From Actinomycetes bacterium (GTDB lineage: Bacteria; Actinomycetota; Actinomycetes; Nanopelagicales; Nanopelagicaceae), in assembly GCA_025363635.1 (NCBI GenBank), contig JANYDL010000056.1, forward strand, positions 1-64,000: DNA of 64,000 nucleotides, written 5' to 3'. This document shows positions 11,555-49,808 of this stretch, piece by piece (the first letter of the stretch is position 1; each line of letters starts with the position of its first letter). The notes beneath the pieces were generated by a model. That model was given only the letters and a program-made list of their open reading frames with translations. It was not told the origin of the DNA and searched no databases. Made by a program: the position numbers and the translations under genes.

Positions 11555-12652
11555 ATGATTGTGCAAGCGCACCGCGCAATTATCGGTGGGCAGATTCGTG
11601 AGAATGTCTGGCTTGAAGTTAATGGCGGAAAAATAATTTCGATAAATGATGGCTCTGTCGAGAATGAGGATTACCTCGTTTCTGGTGTTCTCATCCCCGG
11701 TTTCGTTGATATGCATTGCCATGGCGGGGGAGGAAAATATTTTTCTGCTAAGAGTGCTCCGGAAATTGAAGTAGCAATTGCTACTCATAGATTTCATGGC
11801 ACAACGACGTTATGTGCCAGCCTGGTGTCGGAACCACTCGATGCTTTGGAATCCCAAATAAGAGGATTGGTGCCTTTCGCAGAACGTGGGGAAATTGTCG
11901 GCATTCATCTCGAGGGTCCATACCTTGCCAAAAGTCGTTGTGGTGCACATGATCCAACGCTTCTTCGAACCCCAAATGTTGATGAATTGATGCGCCTTAT
12001 AAAAACTGGCAAAGGATTTATAAAAATGGTGACAATTGCACCAGAGCTCGAGGGAGCGATCCAAGCGATTGAATATTTAGTTTCTGCGGGCGTGAAAGTG
12101 GCAATTGGGCATTCTGCAGCAAACTTCGATGAAGCCAAGGCAGGGGTCGATGCAGGAGCAACTATCGTTACCCATTTCCCCAATGCAGTTTCAAAACTTG
12201 ATGATGAAGGTGCCACTTTTGCCACCATGGCAATGTCAGATGATCGAATTGCCCTTGAACTCATCCTGGATGGCCATCATGTAGCAAAAAATGTGGTCGA
12301 TCGGATTTATTCTGTTGCGCAAGAACGCCTAGCACTTGTCACAGATGCCATGTGTGCTGCCGGAAGTTCCGATGGGCGGTATTTAATAGGTACTTTGCCT
12401 GTAACGGTAAGTAGTTCGGTGGCAAGGCTTGATTCAAATGGATCCCTTGCCGGTAGCACTTTAACTATGGACGGAGCCTTTTTCAATGCTATGGATATCG
12501 CAGGGCTCACTATTCCCCAAGCGGTATTTGCTTCATCAACGTTGCCCGCCAAGTTATTTGGACTCCACGACCGAGGAGAAATTGCGATTGGAAAACGAGC
12601 AGACTTACTCGAAGCAAATTTAAACACTCAGAAAGTATCGGTCGTCAGTTAG
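11555..12652 (+). CDS. nagA: N-acetylglucosamine-6-phosphate deacetylase
   Basis: 365 residues of the amidohydrolase superfamily. Metal and catalytic motifs in order: DMHCHGG (about residue 51), HLEGPYL (metal Glu), AIGHSAANFDEA (His), THFPNAVSKL and VTDAMCAAG (catalytic Asp). It removes the acetyl group of GlcNAc-6-P in amino-sugar or peptidoglycan recycling. The SIS deaminase is divergent across about 86 bases, so both could share one control region. THFPNAVS differs from the usual THLFNAMS, a conservative variation. Confidence 0.92.
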   Translation: MIVQAHRAIIGGQIRENVWLEVNGGKIISINDGSVENEDYLVSGVLIPGFVDMHCHGGGGKYFSAKSAPEIEVAIATHRFHGTTTLCASLVSEPLDALESQIRGLVPFAERGEIVGIHLEGPYLAKSRCGAHDPTLLRTPNVDELMRLIKTGKGFIKMVTIAPELEGAIQAIEYLVSAGVKVAIGHSAANFDEAKAGVDAGATIVTHFPNAVSKLDDEGATFATMAMSDDRIALELILDGHHVAKNVVDRIYSVAQERLALVTDAMCAAGSSDGRYLIGTLPVTVSSSVARLDSNGSLAGSTLTMDGAFFNAMDIAGLTIPQAVFASSTLPAKLFGLHDRGEIAIGKRADLLEANLNTQKVSVVS

Positions 12653-15373: not shown

Positions 15374-15550
15374 TTATTTTCCGCCCATAATGCGATGAAA
15401 AAATCCACCACTAGTGTTCACACTTTTGGCGCTCTTGTCGCATGCGCAACGATCCGCCTTTGGAATACCGCGTAACGCTTGCTCTATATGTTCACCACAA
15501 CCGCTCCAGGTCGGCTTTCCACAGGTTCTACACGTCGTTCTGCTGCACAT
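15374..15550 (-). CDS. 58-residue Cys-rich protein, probable zinc-binding
   Basis: Reads MCSRTTCRTCGKPTWSGCGE then HIEQALRGIPKADRCACDKS, with Cys at 2, 7, 10, 18, 35 and 37 and one His just after CGEH. The clustered Cys suggest a small zinc ribbon. ATG 15550 was chosen because AAAGGA lies 7-8 bases upstream; an in-frame ATG at 15592 adds 14 residues but overlaps the preceding gene's end. Similar short proteins are widespread in bacteria without a known role. It lies 38 bases after the CoA-disulfide-reductase fusion and may be the last gene of the sulfur operon. Confidence 0.75.
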   Translation of the reverse strand: MCSRTTCRTCGKPTWSGCGEHIEQALRGIPKADRCACDKSAKSVNTSGGFFHRIMGGK

Positions 15551-15588
15551 AACATGATCCTTTTCTGTTGCGCGTAATGGTTGAGATT

Positions 15589-17229
15589 TCAAACAAGAAT
15601 TGCATCCATAGCAGCGGGTGAATGGAGCCAGGTGAGGTACCCACCATCCAAGTTGAAAGAGTTGAAGCCCAGCCCATTCAAGAGCAAGCTCGCACTATGT
15701 CCACGAACTCCCACATGGCAAATGACGATAACCTCATTGCTTCTGACTTCACCAATTCGTTCACGTAATTCATCAATAGGAATATTGATAGACCCGGGAA
15801 TATGTCCTTCTGAGTACTCCTTAGCGCTGCGGACATCTACGAGTTCAAACCCACGTCCGCCAAATTCTTCAAGTTCACTCCATAGAATGACAGGAGCCAG
15901 CCCAGATAAACGATTTTCTGCAACATAACCGAGCATATTGACAGGATCTTTTGCAGAACCAAAGGGAGGGGCGTAAGCAAGTTCTAGATCAGCAAGTTCT
16001 GGGGCAGTAATTCCCCCTCGCATTGCGGTAGCGATGACATCAATTCGCTTATCTACTCCAGAGTGACCGACTCCTTGCGCTCCTAAAATTGCCCCGGTTG
16101 TGGAATCAAAAATCAGTTTGAGTGCCATTGACTCAGCCCCAGGATAGTAGCCCGCGTGAGAAGAGGGATGCGTATGGATCACACCAAATTGGCGCCCTTG
16201 TGCGCGCATCCGATGTTCATTCCAACCAGTCGCGGCAATTGTTAAAGAAAAAACTTTCACAATGGATGTTCCGATCGTGGCAACTGGGCGAACTTTTAAT
16301 CCAAAGATGTGATCGGCGGCCACGCGTCCATGGCGGTTCGCGATATTCGCCAGAGGGACCAAGGAAGCATTCCCATCCAGGGCATCTTTCTTTTCAGCCA
16401 CGTCACCTACCGCGTAAATATCCGGGTCGCTACTTCTATTGAATTCGTCGACTTGGATTCCACCTCGCTCACCGATAGTGAGACCTCCGCGCACAGCGAG
16501 ATTGATATCTGATCTTACCCCTATAGCAAGAATTACTAAATCAGCAGGAATCACCTCATCGTTATCGAGTGTCACAAAATCTTCGGTTATCTCCGTAACT
16601 GCGTGTCCGAAAAATAGTGATACCCCATTGCGAAGCATTTCCTCGGCAACAAGCGAGGCCATCTCTTCATCCAATGGCGCGAGCAGTTGGGAAGATAATT
16701 CGACGAGGGCCGTAGAAATACCACGATTTGTGAGGTTCTCCGCTATTTCGACTCCAATATATCCACCACCAATAACCACAGCGTTGCGGGGATTGACGTT
16801 GACCTGCTGAACAATTCTTTCGACATCCTCAACTGTTCTGAGAGTGAAAGCCCTTTCAGCGCCCTTAATGGCAGGCACTATCGGAGTCGCACCTGGGCTA
16901 AGAATCAACTTATCGAAGGATATTTGGCTTTCTAGTCGAGTTTTTAGATCGAGCACTTTGACTACTTTACGGAAAGCGTCGATTTCCAGAACTTCGGTAG
17001 AAACTCGGACGTCTAGTCGAAAACGTATGTGCAATGACTCGGGCGTCTGAAGAAATAGTGCACTTTCTTCTTCAATAACACCGCCAACGTAGTATGGAAG
17101 TCCGCAGTTGGCGTAAGAGACGTGCCCACTTTTCTCAAGAACGACTATTTCCGCATCGACATCTAGACGACGCGCACGAGTCGCAGCAGACATACCGCCA
17201 GCGACTCCTCCTACTATCACAATCTTCAT
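15589..17229 (-). CDS. CoA-disulfide reductase fused to rhodanese (CoADR-Rhd)
   Basis: 546 residues. FAD-binding IVIVGGVAGGMSAATRARRL opens the protein, and the active-site Cys42 sits in YANCGLPYYVGG, the CoADR/persulfide-reductase signature. NAD(P)H binding (AVVIGGGYIGVEIAE) and a dimerisation domain follow. A C-terminal rhodanese (about residues 450-546) carries Cys504 in ICHVGVRGHSAS. Such fusions reduce CoA-disulfide, CoA-persulfide and polysulfide. ATG 17229 is supported by GAGGA 5 bases upstream, and it overlaps the stop of the rhodanese lipoprotein (TAATG). Third gene of the CstR-like operon. Confidence 0.92.
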   Translation of the reverse strand: MKIVIVGGVAGGMSAATRARRLDVDAEIVVLEKSGHVSYANCGLPYYVGGVIEEESALFLQTPESLHIRFRLDVRVSTEVLEIDAFRKVVKVLDLKTRLESQISFDKLILSPGATPIVPAIKGAERAFTLRTVEDVERIVQQVNVNPRNAVVIGGGYIGVEIAENLTNRGISTALVELSSQLLAPLDEEMASLVAEEMLRNGVSLFFGHAVTEITEDFVTLDNDEVIPADLVILAIGVRSDINLAVRGGLTIGERGGIQVDEFNRSSDPDIYAVGDVAEKKDALDGNASLVPLANIANRHGRVAADHIFGLKVRPVATIGTSIVKVFSLTIAATGWNEHRMRAQGRQFGVIHTHPSSHAGYYPGAESMALKLIFDSTTGAILGAQGVGHSGVDKRIDVIATAMRGGITAPELADLELAYAPPFGSAKDPVNMLGYVAENRLSGLAPVILWSELEEFGGRGFELVDVRSAKEYSEGHIPGSINIPIDELRERIGEVRSNEVIVICHVGVRGHSASLLLNGLGFNSFNLDGGYLTWLHSPAAMDAILV

Positions 17230-17621
17230 TATGTCCTCACTAAGGGAAGGCCAGCAGACATCCATCCTTGAATGCCATTCAATAAATTAAAGACCGACAA
17301 AAACTTCGCTTTAACCATTTTGTCGGTAGCTATTCCAGATCTGCGACCACTGTGACAGTAAACCGCATACGTTGTGTTTTTATTCAACTTTGCAATATCA
17401 GAATCAAAGGTCGATGAATCAACATCTATATTGATAGCGCCGGCGATATGGCCCGTATTGAACTCATCTGGTGTTCTTACATCGATTGTTTTCACACCAT
17501 CTTCTTGGATTTTACTTTGAAACTGTGTCGGATCTAGATTTGAAACGGTGACGGAATTTGAGCTACATGCTGTGAGAGCGAGAAGGGAAAGCACACCGAT
17601 GAATAGAAGACTTTTCTTCAT
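17229..17621 (-). CDS. rhodanese-domain lipoprotein
   Basis: 130 residues. Signal peptide with lipobox LTAC (Cys19), so the protein should be lipid-anchored outside the membrane. A single rhodanese domain follows: TIDVRTPDEFNTGHIAGAIN and catalytic Cys89 in VYCHSGRRS. It would transfer or accept sulfane sulfur at the cell surface. It starts 3 bases after the CstR-like regulator and overlaps the CoADR-Rhd start. Confidence 0.9.
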   Translation of the reverse strand: MKKSLLFIGVLSLLALTACSSNSVTVSNLDPTQFQSKIQEDGVKTIDVRTPDEFNTGHIAGAINIDVDSSTFDSDIAKLNKNTTYAVYCHSGRRSGIATDKMVKAKFLSVFNLLNGIQGWMSAGLPLVRT

Positions 17622-17624
17622 GGA

Positions 17625-17921
17625 TTATGCCAAACTTAAGAACAGTTTTTGAAGTTTCTCGGTTATAGCTTCTGCATCCTTAGAAGAATCTTCAATGCAG
17701 GATTTCAAATTAGCTGCGATGAGTGTGAACGCAGCCGTATTTATCGCTTTGCCAACCGCCGCCATTTGCATAACTATCTCTTCGCACGTACGTCCTTCAT
17801 CGAGCATTCTCACAACGGCGCCCAACTGACCGTGAGCTCTCTTTAAGCGTTTGGTGAGCGCATCGAGTTGCTGTTGATCAGTGAGAACGTGAGTTGGGCC
17901 CACAACCGTTTTCGTTGACAT
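17625..17921 (-). CDS. CsoR/FrmR-family repressor, CstR-like persulfide sensor
   Basis: 98 residues, all-helical DUF156 family. Thiols Cys46 (GRTCEEI) and Cys75 (NLKSC) are 29 residues apart, as in CsoR and CstR. The residue four before the second Cys, His in copper-sensing CsoR, is Asn71 here, as in the persulfide sensor CstR. A good ribosome site (GGAGG, 4 bases before ATG) is present. Downstream genes are two rhodanese proteins and a CoADR, which fits sulfane-sulfur sensing rather than copper. A perfect palindrome lies in its promoter. Metal sensing is not excluded. Confidence 0.88.
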   Translation of the reverse strand: MSTKTVVGPTHVLTDQQQLDALTKRLKRAHGQLGAVVRMLDEGRTCEEIVMQMAAVGKAINTAAFTLIAANLKSCIEDSSKDAEAITEKLQKLFLSLA

Positions 17922-17957: not shown

Positions 17958-17986
17958 AGCATAGCATACCCCTAGGGGTATGGCAA
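17958..17986 (-). promoter_or_regulatory. CstR-like operator inside a sigma-A-type promoter
   Basis: CATACCCCTAGGGGTATG at 17965-17982 is a perfect 18-base palindrome of the G/C-core, ATAC-flank type known for CsoR/CstR operators. On the minus strand TTGCCA (17986-17981) and TATGCT (17963-17958) flank it with a 17-base gap, so the palindrome fills the spacer of a plausible -35/-10 promoter. It lies 44 bases before the repressor start, which predicts autorepression released by the inducing sulfur species. Confidence 0.78.
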
Positions 17987-42859: not shown

Positions 42860-44047
42860 CTAATGTGAGTCGAGGAAGCGGCGGATTTGGATTGCCACCG
42901 CTGCTCCTTCTCCTACTGCCGATGCGAGTTGCTTCGTGGATCCCGCGCGGACATCACCGGCGGCAAATATTCGAGGCATCGATGTCATGAAAGCGGAATC
43001 GGTCAAAGCAAACCCCCTCACATCCCTCTTGATTTCCGTTGGGAGCCAAGAGGTATTGGGATCAAGCCCGATAAAGACGAATACTCCATCAGTCAGATAC
43101 ACAATTTCCTTATCTGAGTTGCCCTGAACCAAAATTATTGATGCGAGCTTTCCTTTATTTGCGACAAATTTTTTCACTCCTACTTCATACATAACGCTCA
43201 TCTTGGGATGGGCTAATACTTTCTCTTGCAAAAGTCGTGACCCCTTCAGTTCCGTCCCCTTCGCCAAGACAGTCACATGTTGAGCAAATTGCGTAAGAAA
43301 CAGCCCCTCCTCTAAGCCTGAGTTGCCAGCACCTATCACTGTGACTTCTGCGGCGCCTTTATAGAAAGGCCCATCGCAAGTCGCACAAAAATGTATACCA
43401 GCACCAATTAAATCTTCTTCGCCTTCGGCTTCAGTTCGTCGGTACGTCGAACCTGTTGCAATCACAAGAGCACGAGCATTGAGCAATTGCCCAGTCGAGG
43501 TGGTAACCACAACTCCGTCAGAAAGAGATTCAAACGAATCAACAGCCACTGCTTCTAACATCTCCACGTCATATCTTTGCGCTTGCAAGGTAAAACGGTG
43601 TGCTAAATCAGCACCACCAATTCCCTCTGGAAAGCCGGGATAGTTATCTAATCTCTCCGTAACACCTGCTTGACCACCCAACGCAGAACGCTCAATGATC
43701 AAGGTTTTTAGATTCTCTCTTGCAGTATAGATAGCGGTCGTCAGGGCCGCCGGCCCTCCACCCGCTATCACAACGTCATACGAGTGTGACATCGCATCTC
43801 GAGTAATCCCGAGCTTGGCAGCCAATTCGTCATTGGTGGGTTCGACTAAAAAAGATCCATCTGGAAAAAGAATGGTCGGAATTATTCGTTTGCCACCATT
43901 AATCTTTTCTACCTGTGATTGCGCTTCAGGAGAGAGTTCCATATTTACATATTCGTATGGAATTCTCTGTTGCGAGAGAAAAGTTTTTGAGCGGCGGCAA
44001 TCTGGACACCAATCAGCACCAATCAGCTTTATATCGCTCTGCATCAT
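42860..44047 (-). CDS. glutaredoxin-thioredoxin reductase fusion
   Basis: 395 residues. The first about 80 are a glutaredoxin-like domain with CPDC (Cys14, Cys17) and VEKINGGKRIIPTILFPDGS. The rest is a full thioredoxin-reductase-type flavoprotein: VIAGGGPAALTTAIYTA, IGAGNSGLEEGLFL, redox pair CATC and GDVRAGSTKQLASAVGEGAA. The fused redox domain may be its own substrate. GGGAG sits close to ATG 44047 and better spaced to ATG 44044. Last gene of the SQR-led run. Confidence 0.9.
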   Translation of the reverse strand: MMQSDIKLIGADWCPDCRRSKTFLSQQRIPYEYVNMELSPEAQSQVEKINGGKRIIPTILFPDGSFLVEPTNDELAAKLGITRDAMSHSYDVVIAGGGPAALTTAIYTARENLKTLIIERSALGGQAGVTERLDNYPGFPEGIGGADLAHRFTLQAQRYDVEMLEAVAVDSFESLSDGVVVTTSTGQLLNARALVIATGSTYRRTEAEGEEDLIGAGIHFCATCDGPFYKGAAEVTVIGAGNSGLEEGLFLTQFAQHVTVLAKGTELKGSRLLQEKVLAHPKMSVMYEVGVKKFVANKGKLASIILVQGNSDKEIVYLTDGVFVFIGLDPNTSWLPTEIKRDVRGFALTDSAFMTSMPRIFAAGDVRAGSTKQLASAVGEGAAVAIQIRRFLDSH

Positions 44048-44063
44048 TCTCCCTGTATTTAGA

Positions 44064-44705
44064 TTAAGACTTTACTAACTTTTTCGACCACTCTCGATAT
44101 GACTCTGAGAGTTCAGCGACGTTGGAGATTTCTAGGATGCGTGAACGTTCCCCGCTTTTGGCAGCATATAAATCCGCAATTGTTATGCCGTGTCTTGGCC
44201 GATAAATAATTTTGACTTCATCGCCCCTGCCAATTTCACCCTCTTGCGCGATTCGCAAATAACTGCCTGGGCGACCCGCGTTTGTGAACTCCTTGATCAA
44301 TGTTGGTCGCTCCCAAAAACCAGCAAACACTCGACACGGGATACGCGGTTGAGAGACTTCAAGGATTGCACTTCCAATTGCCCAACGCTCACCAATAACG
44401 GCGTTAGTAACGTCTACTCCTTGCGTGGTGAGGTTTTCACCGAACCGACCATGCGCGATGCTGAGTCCAATTTCGTTCTCCCACCATCGCAAATCTTCCT
44501 CTGCATATGCATAAACTGCTGCGTCATATCCTCCGTGACCCTTTCGATCCGCGATGACATCGCCTTCGACTGCATTATTTTTCAGAATCACCCGGCCATC
44601 GACAGATCGTTTATCTATTCCTGTTCGGCCTTCACTTCCCGTCCATGCGCCTTCATGCACTACGGAAGTAATGTTGACCGATAAAACGCTCCCGTTGCTT
44701 CCCAT
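44064..44705 (-). CDS. MOSC-domain protein (YiiM-like)
   Basis: About 213 residues from ATG 44705 (ATG 44726 also possible). MOSC features: DRKGHGGYDAAVYAYAEED, GRFGENLTTQGVDV and a conserved Cys in SQPRIPCRVFAGFW, where molybdenum-cofactor sulfurases and YiiM/YuaD proteins carry their reactive Cys. Likely handles molybdenum cofactor or N-hydroxylated compounds. Its place in a sulfur operon hints at a sulfur-carrier role; inference only. Confidence 0.86.
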   Translation of the reverse strand: MGSNGSVLSVNITSVVHEGAWTGSEGRTGIDKRSVDGRVILKNNAVEGDVIADRKGHGGYDAAVYAYAEEDLRWWENEIGLSIAHGRFGENLTTQGVDVTNAVIGERWAIGSAILEVSQPRIPCRVFAGFWERPTLIKEFTNAGRPGSYLRIAQEGEIGRGDEVKIIYRPRHGITIADLYAAKSGERSRILEISNVAELSESYREWSKKLVKS

Positions 44706-44731
44706 AGTTGGCGAGCGTACGCACAACTGGG

Positions 44732-45268
44732 TTAAATGAAAAGGAGTTGCGCGCCTTCAGTCATTTCAATGAAGTCCGAAGCACTAATGATGCCTTCGAC
44801 ATCATCGCGCAAATCAGCCATTGTGTATTTGTTCATGTCAGCTGACATGCGGCATGCCCACAAATGTCCGCCGGCCGCAACGATTTGGTCTAGAAAATCG
44901 GGCACCTCTGGCACGTCAAGATCAGCAATCTGCTTCTTGAGCATTTTCGTCGCCATTGCTGTCATACCGGGAGCTGGCATCATCGCCTGAGGAATATGTG
45001 CGTTGGTGCCAGGTAGATGCATGGCCGTATTACCTGCAGGACTAAATTGAAGATCATTCATCCGTGCTTTCGAAATCATGTCAAAGCCCCAGAAAGTAAA
45101 GAAGATCATCGTCTCAACTCCCTCACCTAATGCAGCATTAGCCAAAATAAGTCCTGGATAAGCCATGTCAAGATTTCCTTTTGAGCAGATAATCGCAAGC
45201 TTTCGTCCGGAATCTTCGTTGCTGGCAAAATTCGGAACTATAGATGGTGCAACTTCAGTGATTGACAT
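44732..45268 (-). CDS. DsrE/DsrF-like sulfur-relay protein (DsrE2 type)
   Basis: 178 residues. KLAIICSKGNLDMAYPGLIL, with Cys in the first loop, and HLWACRMSADMNKY, with a second conserved Cys, fit the DsrE2 group that moves sulfane sulfur. Lies 11 bases after the DsrC/TusE-like gene. In sulfur oxidisers DsrE2 works with rhodanese and TusA; here the partner is the DsrC-like protein. Confidence 0.9.
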   Translation of the reverse strand: MSITEVAPSIVPNFASNEDSGRKLAIICSKGNLDMAYPGLILANAALGEGVETMIFFTFWGFDMISKARMNDLQFSPAGNTAMHLPGTNAHIPQAMMPAPGMTAMATKMLKKQIADLDVPEVPDFLDQIVAAGGHLWACRMSADMNKYTMADLRDDVEGIISASDFIEMTEGAQLLFI

Positions 45269-45279
45269 TTCATACTCCT

Positions 45280-45594
45280 TTAGACGCAGCCCTTGGGCTT
45301 TGGTAATCCAGCGATGTAAGCCATCTTTTTGGCGGGTTTCTTAGGAAAGAGGGCGAACTGCTCTTTAACCGGCACTCCGCCCACCGTTTGGACTCGACGA
45401 GAAGTTGCCGTCTCGCCTTGAACCTTGAAGTCTTCACGCAAGAAATTAATGATTTTCCAATGTTCATCCGTGAGGTCGACTTCGATCTGTTTTGCCAGCA
45501 CCTTCGCTATATCCGTATCCCACTCACCATATTCTGTGAGGAAGCCTTCTTCATTTACGTGGATTGGCTTTCCCGCAATTTCAACGACTGGCAT
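45280..45594 (-). CDS. DsrC/TusE-family sulfur carrier with a single C-terminal Cys
   Basis: 104 residues. ITEYGEW-type opening (EEGFLTEYGEWDTDIAKVLA), LTDEHWKIINFLREDF, and a C-terminal arm ending AGLPKPKGCV with Cys103. Two-Cys DsrC proteins have a second Cys about 11 residues earlier (ACKIAGLPKP); here that position is not Cys (MAYIAGLPKP). It is therefore a one-Cys, TusE-like carrier. Its start lies within the end of the SQR gene (14-base overlap) and uses a GGAG inside it. Confidence 0.92.
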   Translation of the reverse strand: MPVVEIAGKPIHVNEEGFLTEYGEWDTDIAKVLAKQIEVDLTDEHWKIINFLREDFKVQGETATSRRVQTVGGVPVKEQFALFPKKPAKKMAYIAGLPKPKGCV

Positions 45595-46852
45595 TTACTT
45601 TTACTCCTTCCGTAAGGACTGGCTGTTTCTTCCCTTTCATTGACATCAGGGCGGGGATTGGTATCCAGCGACCCTTCAACAATAAATTCCAATAGATCCA
45701 TCGGAAAGCTAATTTGCCTAAGTGATTGATACGACTTTCCTTGAGTAAAGGCATAGGACCCAAGACTGGGATCGGGAACATTCCGGGTAGGGGCTCTGTT
45801 GTGTAATTAAAATCAATCAGCAATCCCTTGCCGTTTCCCGACTCAATGAAACAGTTTGCATGTCCATCAAAGTTATGTTTCATTTCACGGCCTTGGATAT
45901 ATTCCACAAAATTCTCTGCAAAGAGATCAATGGCAAAGTGAGCAACTGAGCCTGCCTTCGAAGCAGGAATATCAGAGGCATCTCCAAGGGCAAAGATGTT
46001 TCCGTACTTCTTGGACAGAAAGTTTTGCTTATCTACGGGAACATAGTTGAGATCATCGCCTAATCCAGATCTGCCTATGAAATCAGCACCCATATTGAGT
46101 GGCACAGTGACAAGTAGATCAAATGGAATTTCTCTTTCATCCATTGAGATGATTGTTTTAGATTCAGGATCTACCCTCTCAATCATAAAATCAGGTTCGA
46201 GAGCAATCTTCCTATCCACCAACATTTTGCCTAGAGCACGAGAGCAAGCCGGCTTCGTGAACGCTCCTTCCAGTGGAGTCACGTAGGTAATTTCAACTTT
46301 GTCACGCATCTTCTTTTCAGTGAAATAGGCGTCTGCCAAAAATGCAAACTCAAGCGGTGCAACAGGACATTTAATCGGCATTTCGGTGATGTGCACCACC
46401 ATACGACCGCCGGGCCAATCTTCTAAAGCATCCTTAAGTGCGATGGAGCCATTTAAGGTGTAGAAATCAAATGCGCTTTTATGCCAAATCAGTTCGTCAT
46501 TTAGTCCCGGTGTCTGGTCAGGACGCGGCGTCGTACCAGTAGCAATGACAAGTTGGTCGTAAGCAAAAATCCGCCCATCTACTAATACAACGCGATTAGC
46601 TTTAGCGTCCACGATGTCAATATCCCCTGAGATGTATTCGATGCCGCTCGGGAAAAAATGATCCCGTTCTTTGACGAGTTCCTCTGACGTATAGACCCCA
46701 AAGGGCATAAGCAGCAACCCTGGTTGGTAAATGTGGTGATTATCTTTATCAACAATGGTGATCTGCCATTCATCTTTTCTGAGTTTCTTCCGTAATTTAT
46801 TGACCACCATGGTGCCGGCAGTACCACCGCCAAGTACAAGTAACTTCTTCAT
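45581..46852 (-). CDS. sulfide:quinone oxidoreductase-like flavoprotein
   Basis: 423 residues. Dinucleotide fold LVLGGGTAGTMVVNKLRKKL, VIATGTTPRPDQTPGL, Cys in EMPIKCPVAPLEFAFL and KPACSRAL, and a membrane-associated C-terminal amphipathic part (FRWIYWNLLLKGRWIPIP) as in SQR. It should oxidise sulfide and pass electrons to quinone. Ribosome site TAGGAG lies 6 bases before ATG 46852. An ATACC-N6-GGTAT site in the leader region suggests CstR-like control. First gene of a run of five. Confidence 0.88.
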   Translation of the reverse strand: MKKLLVLGGGTAGTMVVNKLRKKLRKDEWQITIVDKDNHHIYQPGLLLMPFGVYTSEELVKERDHFFPSGIEYISGDIDIVDAKANRVVLVDGRIFAYDQLVIATGTTPRPDQTPGLNDELIWHKSAFDFYTLNGSIALKDALEDWPGGRMVVHITEMPIKCPVAPLEFAFLADAYFTEKKMRDKVEITYVTPLEGAFTKPACSRALGKMLVDRKIALEPDFMIERVDPESKTIISMDEREIPFDLLVTVPLNMGADFIGRSGLGDDLNYVPVDKQNFLSKKYGNIFALGDASDIPASKAGSVAHFAIDLFAENFVEYIQGREMKHNFDGHANCFIESGNGKGLLIDFNYTTEPLPGMFPIPVLGPMPLLKESRINHLGKLAFRWIYWNLLLKGRWIPIPALMSMKGKKQPVLTEGVKVNASR

Positions 46853-46882
46853 TTCTTGCTCCTATCCACCTAATGGTGGCAC

Positions 46883-46902
46883 ATATACCCCGCACGGTAT
46901 AT
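46883..46902 (-). promoter_or_regulatory. second CstR-like operator, upstream of SQR operon
   Basis: ATATACCCCGCACGGTATAT (46883-46902) has half-sites ATATACC/GGTATAT separated by six bases. The core ATACC-N6-GGTAT matches, half-site for half-site and with the same spacing, the perfect palindrome at 17965-17982. The site is 31-50 bases before the SQR start. A separate hairpin CCACC-TAAT-GGTGG (46866-46879) lies between it and the ribosome site. Confidence 0.72.
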
Positions 46903-48359: not shown

Positions 48360-49808
48360 TTAATGAACGACCGCTTCAACTTCAATCTCCACCAAATATT
48401 GGTCGCCAATTAATTTTGCTTCCACCATAGTGTTGGCCGGACGTATCTCGGCAAATCTCTCTCCATGGACTCGCGCGATGGACTCCCAATTTTTCATCTC
48501 ACTTACATAGATTCGAGATCGAATGACGTCGCTGAGTTTTGCGCCGAGAGATTCGAGAGAAGCCTCTATTTTGTCAATGACAAAATCTGTCTGTGCTATC
48601 GGGTCGCCGATGCCAATGCTGAGCGCTCCATGTGTTGCAGTAGTCCCAGATACTAAAACCCGTTCGCCGTGACGGACTGCCCGTGAGTAACCCGCCAGAG
48701 CTTCCCATGAGGTTCCCGAATCAATACGTGATTTCCCGGCAGATTTGATAACTTCATAGACTGGTGGAAAGTCAGCAACGTGATGGCTCAAATCACCAGA
48801 GGCCGTTAAGTAAGGAGGTTTTCGGTATTCGTCACCACAGTCACCCGGAATGGGCAGCAACTCTGCAATTGCCGTAGCAATATCGCTTCGCTGGGAAGAA
48901 GTAAGTTCGAAATCAAAAAGTGAAACAGCATCTTCGATGTGGGCATTTTCACCCAGACGAGCTCCAATAATGACTGCGCCGACGGCTTTTTGACCGAGTT
49001 GATATTTACTTGCGATGGTCGAGATAGATTTATCAACTGATTCACTGATGCGATCTAAAACCCCCAAAAGATTCTGGAATCGGTCCCAGCCACCAGCGGC
49101 GTCGATAAACCGCTTATATTTCATGAGCGACCAATTCGCTAAACCATCAGAGGATGGCTCCGGTTTGCCAAGCCATTTCTGAGAAAGAAACCCACCACAC
49201 AGGGTTCCATAAGCCAGAATCGCAATCCCGTTTTCAGCGCAGTAGTCGGCCATCTTCCCACCTCCGCGTTGGTCGACGAGAGAATACGAAATCTGATTTG
49301 AAACTAATTCGATTCCCACCGACTTCGCAATTCTCAAATGTGCTGTATCAAAATTTGTCGTTCCGAGGGCGCCTATCACTCCTTCTTGCTTCAATTCTTG
49401 TAAATAAATAAGTGAGTCAAGCCAAAAAGGATTTGCGAAACTCCACGCGTGATATTGCAAGAGATCAATCTTCTTAGTTTGTAGTCGATCACACCGTTCT
49501 TTGATTGCCGCCCGAACTTGTTCTCGAGTGACTGGTCCAGGTTTTGGAACCCATTTCGTGAACATTTTGGCGGGTTCTCTATGAGAGTTATTTCTTTGAA
49601 AATACCCGGCAATGATTTCTGCAGATCCGTAATGATCTGCCATATCGAAGGTGTTTAGTCCTGCGTCGGCGTAAGGCTCCATAAATATCGAAGTTGCGAC
49701 AGGATCTAGTGTCTTCCCATCCTTCTCCATATCAGCGATCTGCCAGAGTCCCGTAACCACACGAGATATTTCTAAGCCAGGTGCGAGTGAGTATTTTTCG
49801 ATCGACAT
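48360..49808 (-). CDS. aldo/keto reductase-RidA fusion protein
   Basis: 482 residues. Residues 1-320 are an aldo/keto reductase barrel with the catalytic set Asp and Tyr in FDMADHYGS, Lys in FTKWVPK and His in LLQYHAW. Residues 355-482 are a RidA/YjgF domain: GTSWEALAGYSRAVRHGERV, LVSGTTATHG, SRIYVSEMKNWESIARVHGE and the substrate Glu in LVEIEVEAVV. The reductase side may act on a carbonyl while RidA clears an imine or enamine. Coupled use of both is inference. Confidence 0.9.
   Translation of the reverse strand: MSIEKYSLAPGLEISRVVTGLWQIADMEKDGKTLDPVATSIFMEPYADAGLNTFDMADHYGSAEIIAGYFQRNNSHREPAKMFTKWVPKPGPVTREQVRAAIKERCDRLQTKKIDLLQYHAWSFANPFWLDSLIYLQELKQEGVIGALGTTNFDTAHLRIAKSVGIELVSNQISYSLVDQRGGGKMADYCAENGIAILAYGTLCGGFLSQKWLGKPEPSSDGLANWSLMKYKRFIDAAGGWDRFQNLLGVLDRISESVDKSISTIASKYQLGQKAVGAVIIGARLGENAHIEDAVSLFDFELTSSQRSDIATAIAELLPIPGDCGDEYRKPPYLTASGDLSHHVADFPPVYEVIKSAGKSRIDSGTSWEALAGYSRAVRHGERVLVSGTTATHGALSIGIGDPIAQTDFVIDKIEASLESLGAKLSDVIRSRIYVSEMKNWESIARVHGERFAEIRPANTMVEAKLIGDQYLVEIEVEAVVH

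Follow-up and report, generated by a model that had tools for sequence, protein, structure and literature searches.

Two operons and a putative persulfide sensor

The window, i.e. the whole stretch of 64 000 nucleotides analysed here (contig JANYDL010000056.1 of a Nanopelagicaceae genome), carries two operons with genes of sulfide and persulfide handling, each preceded by a palindromic site of the same kind (table 1). The first operon (15374–17921) starts with the gene for a repressor that is placed in the CsoR/RcnR (DUF156) fold family by its PF02583 score (73 bits versus a cut-off of 22.8) and that is the sole PF02583 protein encoded in the genome. Its two cysteines, C46 and C75, are 29 residues apart and the copper-binding histidine of CsoR is missing; among 30 homologues, C46 is kept in all and C75 in 29, and the position of the copper histidine is occupied by Asn, Ser or Gly throughout. 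Sharing an operon with rhodanese and persulfide-handling genes is likewise what is expected of a CstR. The closest solved relative, 7mq1, was deposited as CsoR, and we take it to be the pneumococcal persulfide sensor CstR. Tandem cstR paralogues, two each, occur in G012 and G015 (L128, L135), where they are preceded by CstR-type sites.

Table 1. Features of the two operons and their predicted operators in the window.
Feature	Position	Strand	Family match or remark
p72, small cysteine-rich protein	15374..15592	-	without family match; recurrent stand-alone motif target in relatives
CoA-disulfide/CoA-persulfide reductase fused to rhodanese domain	15589..17265	-	best PDB match 8a56
Single-domain rhodanese	17229..17621	-	PF00581
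cstR, CsoR/RcnR-family repressor	17625..17921	-	PF02583; CstR-type two-cysteine, no-histidine signature
CstR-type operator (predicted) before cstR	17966..17981	.	perfect 16-base palindrome ATACCCCTAGGGGTAT; conserved before cstR in relatives
Glutaredoxin/mycoredoxin–thioredoxin reductase fusion (Grx-TrxR)	42860..44047	-	same strand, 16-bp gap; linkage not conserved
MOSC-domain protein	44064..44726	-	same transcription unit by spacing; otherwise in nearest relative only
DsrE2-like sulfur carrier	44732..45268	-	PF13686
DsrC/TusE-like sulfur carrier	45280..45594	-	only the penultimate C-terminal Cys; 14-bp overlap with SQR stop
Sulfide:quinone reductase (SQR), type III	45581..46852	-	NCBIfam NF049943
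CstR-type operator (predicted) before SQR	46883..46902	.	perfect 20-base inverted repeat ATATACC-N6-GGTATAT

The fusion protein encoded downstream has the make-up of a CoA-persulfide reductase (CoAPR), with a CDR domain and a C-terminal rhodanese domain, and is nearest to the Enterococcus faecalis enzyme (8a56), which it matches over its full length (E=8e-154); against TIGR03385 it reaches 444 bits, which is under the 579-bit equivalog cut-off of that model. The small protein p72 is encoded in four relatives (G003, G009, G012 and G020) by a stand-alone gene directly behind its own CstR-type site; by its sequence context, it is a candidate for a new persulfide-response protein.

In the second operon (42860–46852), all genes are joined by overlaps or gaps of 5–16 bp. 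With 627 bits against the NF049943 cut-off of 525, SQR is assigned to type III, and having no in-frame TGA it is not itself a selenoprotein. The DsrC-like carrier has Ala in place of the second C-terminal cysteine (CysB) of DsrC proper, and is thus the TusE-like single-Cys form. Family matches confirm all gene identities that had been named in an earlier note on this DNA. The unity of the second operon assumed there, however, stands in part only: SQR–DsrC–DsrE2 is the core that is conserved in relatives and recurs widely, but MOSC follows this core in the nearest relative only and Grx-TrxR in none of the relatives examined, i.e. these two are not conserved members. A search of the genome for a CstB-type persulfide dioxygenase (PDO) or a PDO–rhodanese fusion found none, with a query that does match in G015, where the persulfide dioxygenase–rhodanese gene stands behind the same kind of CstR-type site.

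Operator-like sites upstream of cstR and SQR

The site upstream of cstR, with the core ATACC-CCTAGG-GGTAT, lies 44 bp 5' of the gene, fills the spacer of a TTGCCA-17-TATGCT promoter-like element and is a complete type 2 operator of the CsoR family, i.e. a TAC/GTA inverted repeat with G/C tracts. The site upstream of SQR (ATATACC-CCGCAC-GGTATAT, with its core ATACC-N6-GGTAT at 46885–46900 and CCGCAC as the core spacer) lies 32 bp 5' of the start codon at 46852, within the 79-bp gap behind the preceding same-strand gene. The two sites, 29 kb apart, indeed have the same 5-bp arms and 6-bp spacing, as had been claimed. What the earlier note missed is that the right arm before SQR is without the G-tract of the cstR-side site (CACGGTAT versus GGGGTAT); the TAC/GTA repeat of a type 2 operator is retained here with one G-tract broken, and the site does not fit the stricter 12-base form ATACCC-N4-GGGTAT. 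A search for a consensus sigma-70 promoter ahead of SQR gave none, and an RNA element at this position was rejected, as there is no Rfam match within the window. Just 5' of the SQR ribosome-binding site there is a CCACC-ATTA-GGTGG hairpin (46861–46880), which is nearly conserved in the relative G003 and folds only slightly better than shuffled sequences (z −2.1).

A scan of the whole 1.85-Mb genome (98.45% complete) for exact ATACC-N6-GGTAT yields two matches, one before SQR and one before cstR. Such a number would arise by chance: at 4^-10, about 1.8 matches should turn up in the genome, and the reversed control is found once. That there are two sites had been put forward as support for a common regulon; the count as such was rejected as evidence, and the argument rests on placement and conservation instead. 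As to placement, a weight matrix trained on the cstR promoters of 24 relatives, with our genome and the site common to cstR and SQR (see below) left out, gives its best window score to 17966 (31.3 bits) and the next best to 46885 (15.6 bits), the lower score of the latter being due to its broken right-hand G-tract. A score of 15.6 bits has a probability of about 1e-4 in a random 250-bp promoter. With a minimum length of 150 aa, which cstR itself does not reach, the window has 51 ORFs, and SQR is the sole gene among them with a positive upstream score. Other window sites with one or two mismatches, namely the next-best ones at 12512 and 21672 and one at 46693, are all intragenic and were rejected as operators.

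Conservation of the motif in relatives

Across 201 genomes of the family, the stricter form ATACCC-N4-GGGTAT occurs 102 times, compared with about 14 occurrences of the reversed control (hand-summed). Among the 61 family genomes searched for both, it is present in all 29 that have CstR and in none of the 32 that do not, a co-occurrence that in part is the autoregulatory site itself. The site before cstR is conserved in relatives with fixed spacing. Genes directly behind 77 of 78 distinct sites (the remaining one is intragenic) are cstR, thioredoxin, p72, a 485-aa SQR-like flavoprotein, the persulfide dioxygenase–rhodanese, SQR or divergent partners of these, a proportion that is partly circular, because some of these reference genes were picked for their adjoining sites; the reference families PDO, SQR-like, thioredoxin and rhodanese are, however, sulfur-related on independent grounds. 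Together with the two exact sites in the genome itself, this is the concentration at sulfur genes that the earlier note had predicted for a genome-wide scan.

The 485-aa flavoprotein, which has a CTCEGA motif (L125:3212–4669; homologues in L131, L144 and L150), recurs throughout the family downstream of CstR-type sites; its score is far under the type III SQR cut-off, and a search of our own genome did not find it. Thioredoxin sites in the family abut the start codon, and in three genomes of another family (L186, L187 and L188) an exact site overlaps the start codon of SQR, positions that suggest leaderless transcripts.

Promoters of SQR were compared in a set of 46 upstream regions (−250 to +20), not all of which are independent. 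The exact motif occurs in eight of these 46 and a version with at most one mismatch in 14, whereas in the same regions the eight palindromes used as controls, which are of like composition, have no exact match and 0–1 matches with at most one mismatch. Sites with at most one mismatch are found in our own genus and in five or more further genera of the class (g22, g41, g46, g95 and g110). Their position relative to the SQR start is alike, −40 to −54, in our genome, G003, G005, G039 and G089; in G003, the nearest relative, one half-site base is changed (ATACG), and in G005, cstR and sqr diverge from a single exact site. A recognisable site was missing from the SQR promoters of many relatives (e.g. 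G009, G013, G015, G017, G020 and G050), which indicates that membership of SQR in the CstR regulon is patchy, having been gained and lost. By eye, a TCTCACAC-like block recurs about 30–35 bp before a TANNNT box in SQR promoters of the genus (L006–L017), siteless ones included; it is possibly an element of a second regulator.

A probable CstR regulon for sulfide and persulfide

Overall, the identity of the repressor as CstR, one common motif and two operons, all claimed before, hold up at the level of sequence, and a CstR regulon in these bacteria appears well supported. For the palindrome at 46883–46902 itself, these data make it very probable that it serves as an operator for the CstR-type repressor, which would govern both its own operon and sqr-dsrC-dsrE2. 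Reduced CstR would bind ATACC-N6-GGTAT before cstR–rhodanese–CoA-persulfide reductase–p72 as well as before sqr-dsrC-dsrE2 and block both; rising levels of persulfides or polysulfides would react with C46 and C75, CstR would be released and both operons would be expressed. SQR would then convert sulfide to sulfane sulfur that could be carried by DsrE2 and DsrC, with rhodanese and CoA-persulfide reductase transferring or reducing it. We infer CstR binding, its release by persulfide and the direction of control from studied relatives; the order of sulfur hand-over between the proteins is conjecture.

One question is whether the site upstream of SQR could be a chance palindrome, with SQR being controlled otherwise. 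About two 10-base matches are expected per genome, which is the number found, the SQR promoters of many relatives are siteless and the right arm before SQR has no G-tract. Nevertheless, a site as good as this one within 250 bp, the enrichment over control palindromes in SQR promoters, the similar position in five genomes and the site common to cstR and sqr in G005 all argue against coincidence, which we consider improbable. Somewhat different is the idea that CstR controls the first operon and merely modulates SQR, the main regulator of which would act at the TCACAC-like upstream element. In line with this, the TCTCACAC-like block recurs before SQR in the genus irrespective of the CstR-type site, and sqr of Bacillus licheniformis requires a two-component system in addition to a CstR-like repressor (PMC9918477). 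This element has been recognized by eye only, however, and would be compatible with CstR control, and we regard such a minor role of CstR at SQR as unlikely. Finally, the protein might be a copper-sensing CsoR and the sites copper operators, as the Pfam family bears the name of metal-sensitive repressors and as the consensus of Streptomyces lividans CsoR, ATATACCCCTNAGGGGTATAT, is nearly the same word (PMC3902906). Yet the copper histidine is replaced in 30 of 30 homologues, and the genes targeted belong to sulfur handling; none of the classified motif sites stands before a copper gene. The best solved relative, presumably pneumococcal CstR, points in the same direction, and a copper sensor, which was rejected for the missing histidine and the sulfur targets, is hardly credible.

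The predicted CstR operator at SQR has a precedent in Streptomyces coelicolor, where ScCsoR (SCO0620), a two-Cys, sulfane-sulfur-sensing CstR-like repressor, binds ATACCn6GGTAT, leaves it on exposure to polysulfide and has PDO, tauE, rhodanese and itself as targets (PMC7533328). Both are two-Cys CstR-like repressors of actinomycetes with an identical operator word and spacing and with control, here predicted, over themselves and a rhodanese, but ScCsoR controls a persulfide dioxygenase and TauE and no SQR (PMC7533328), whereas SQR–DsrC–DsrE2 and CoA-persulfide reductase are found here and a PDO–rhodanese of the ScCsoR type was not found in the genome. Direct repression of sqr, along with sulfurtransferase genes, by CstR is known from Staphylococcus aureus, in a single cluster with CstA and CstB (PMC5480029); similar control over sqr is predicted here, but with two operons 29 kb apart and no CstB-type enzyme found. 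The first operon resembles that of E. faecalis, whose CstR represses CoAPR (the enzyme solved as 8a56) and is accompanied by rhodaneses, a cst-like operon in which SQR is not named in the consulted passages of that report (PMC9405070). YrkD of B. licheniformis is a CstR-like repressor over DsrE, TusA, rhodanese, thioredoxin and SQR, but these lie in a single cluster of 11 genes that also includes PDO, with NreBC as an additional sulfide sensor, and YrkD does not directly bind before sqr (PMC9918477). TTHA1953 of Thermus thermophilus is a CsoR-family repressor with sulfur targets similarly scattered over the genome, but with another operator (TACNNTACNNNNGTANNGTA) and with Sox targets (PMC10318464).

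No paper on sulfide regulation or a CstR regulon in these bacteria was found in the literature searched, with subscription papers mostly outside it. To this extent, the view that the regulon is undescribed in the lineage stands, but motif and sensor type have been published in an actinomycete (PMC7533328). Both the kind of sensor and its DNA word have precedents in Streptomyces and Staphylococcus; the host group is new, and so, in part, is the apparent cargo of SQR–DsrC–DsrE2 and CoA-persulfide reductase, with no PDO–rhodanese found. A family of small-genome actinobacteria, known here from genome assemblies only, would gain a defined sulfide/persulfide response, of which the sensor, the DNA word and the target list can be read from the sequence, and the ScCsoR operator is extended from Streptomyces to Nanopelagicaceae and to SQR. 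Furthermore, ATACCC-N4-GGGTAT becomes a marker for placing uncharacterised genes, such as that of the cysteine-rich p72, in sulfur handling. More tentatively, one may even envisage a CstR-controlled sulfide route that does without persulfide dioxygenase: SQR would produce sulfane sulfur, DsrE2 and single-Cys DsrC would deliver it to biosynthetic or other acceptors, CoA-persulfide reductase would recycle the excess and the SQR module would enter or leave the regulon by lineage via gain or loss of one 16-bp site.

Some further proteins came to our attention. An SQR relative at L024:1501–2646 has an in-frame TGA near its C-terminus (GRF-U-P), possibly encoding selenocysteine; in G023, a weaker SQR-like gene that also contains a TGA is transcribed divergently from cstR. 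Within the window, the gene at 48360–49808 appears, judged from its sequence, to encode an aldo-keto reductase that carries a RidA/YjgF-like domain as a C-terminal fusion.
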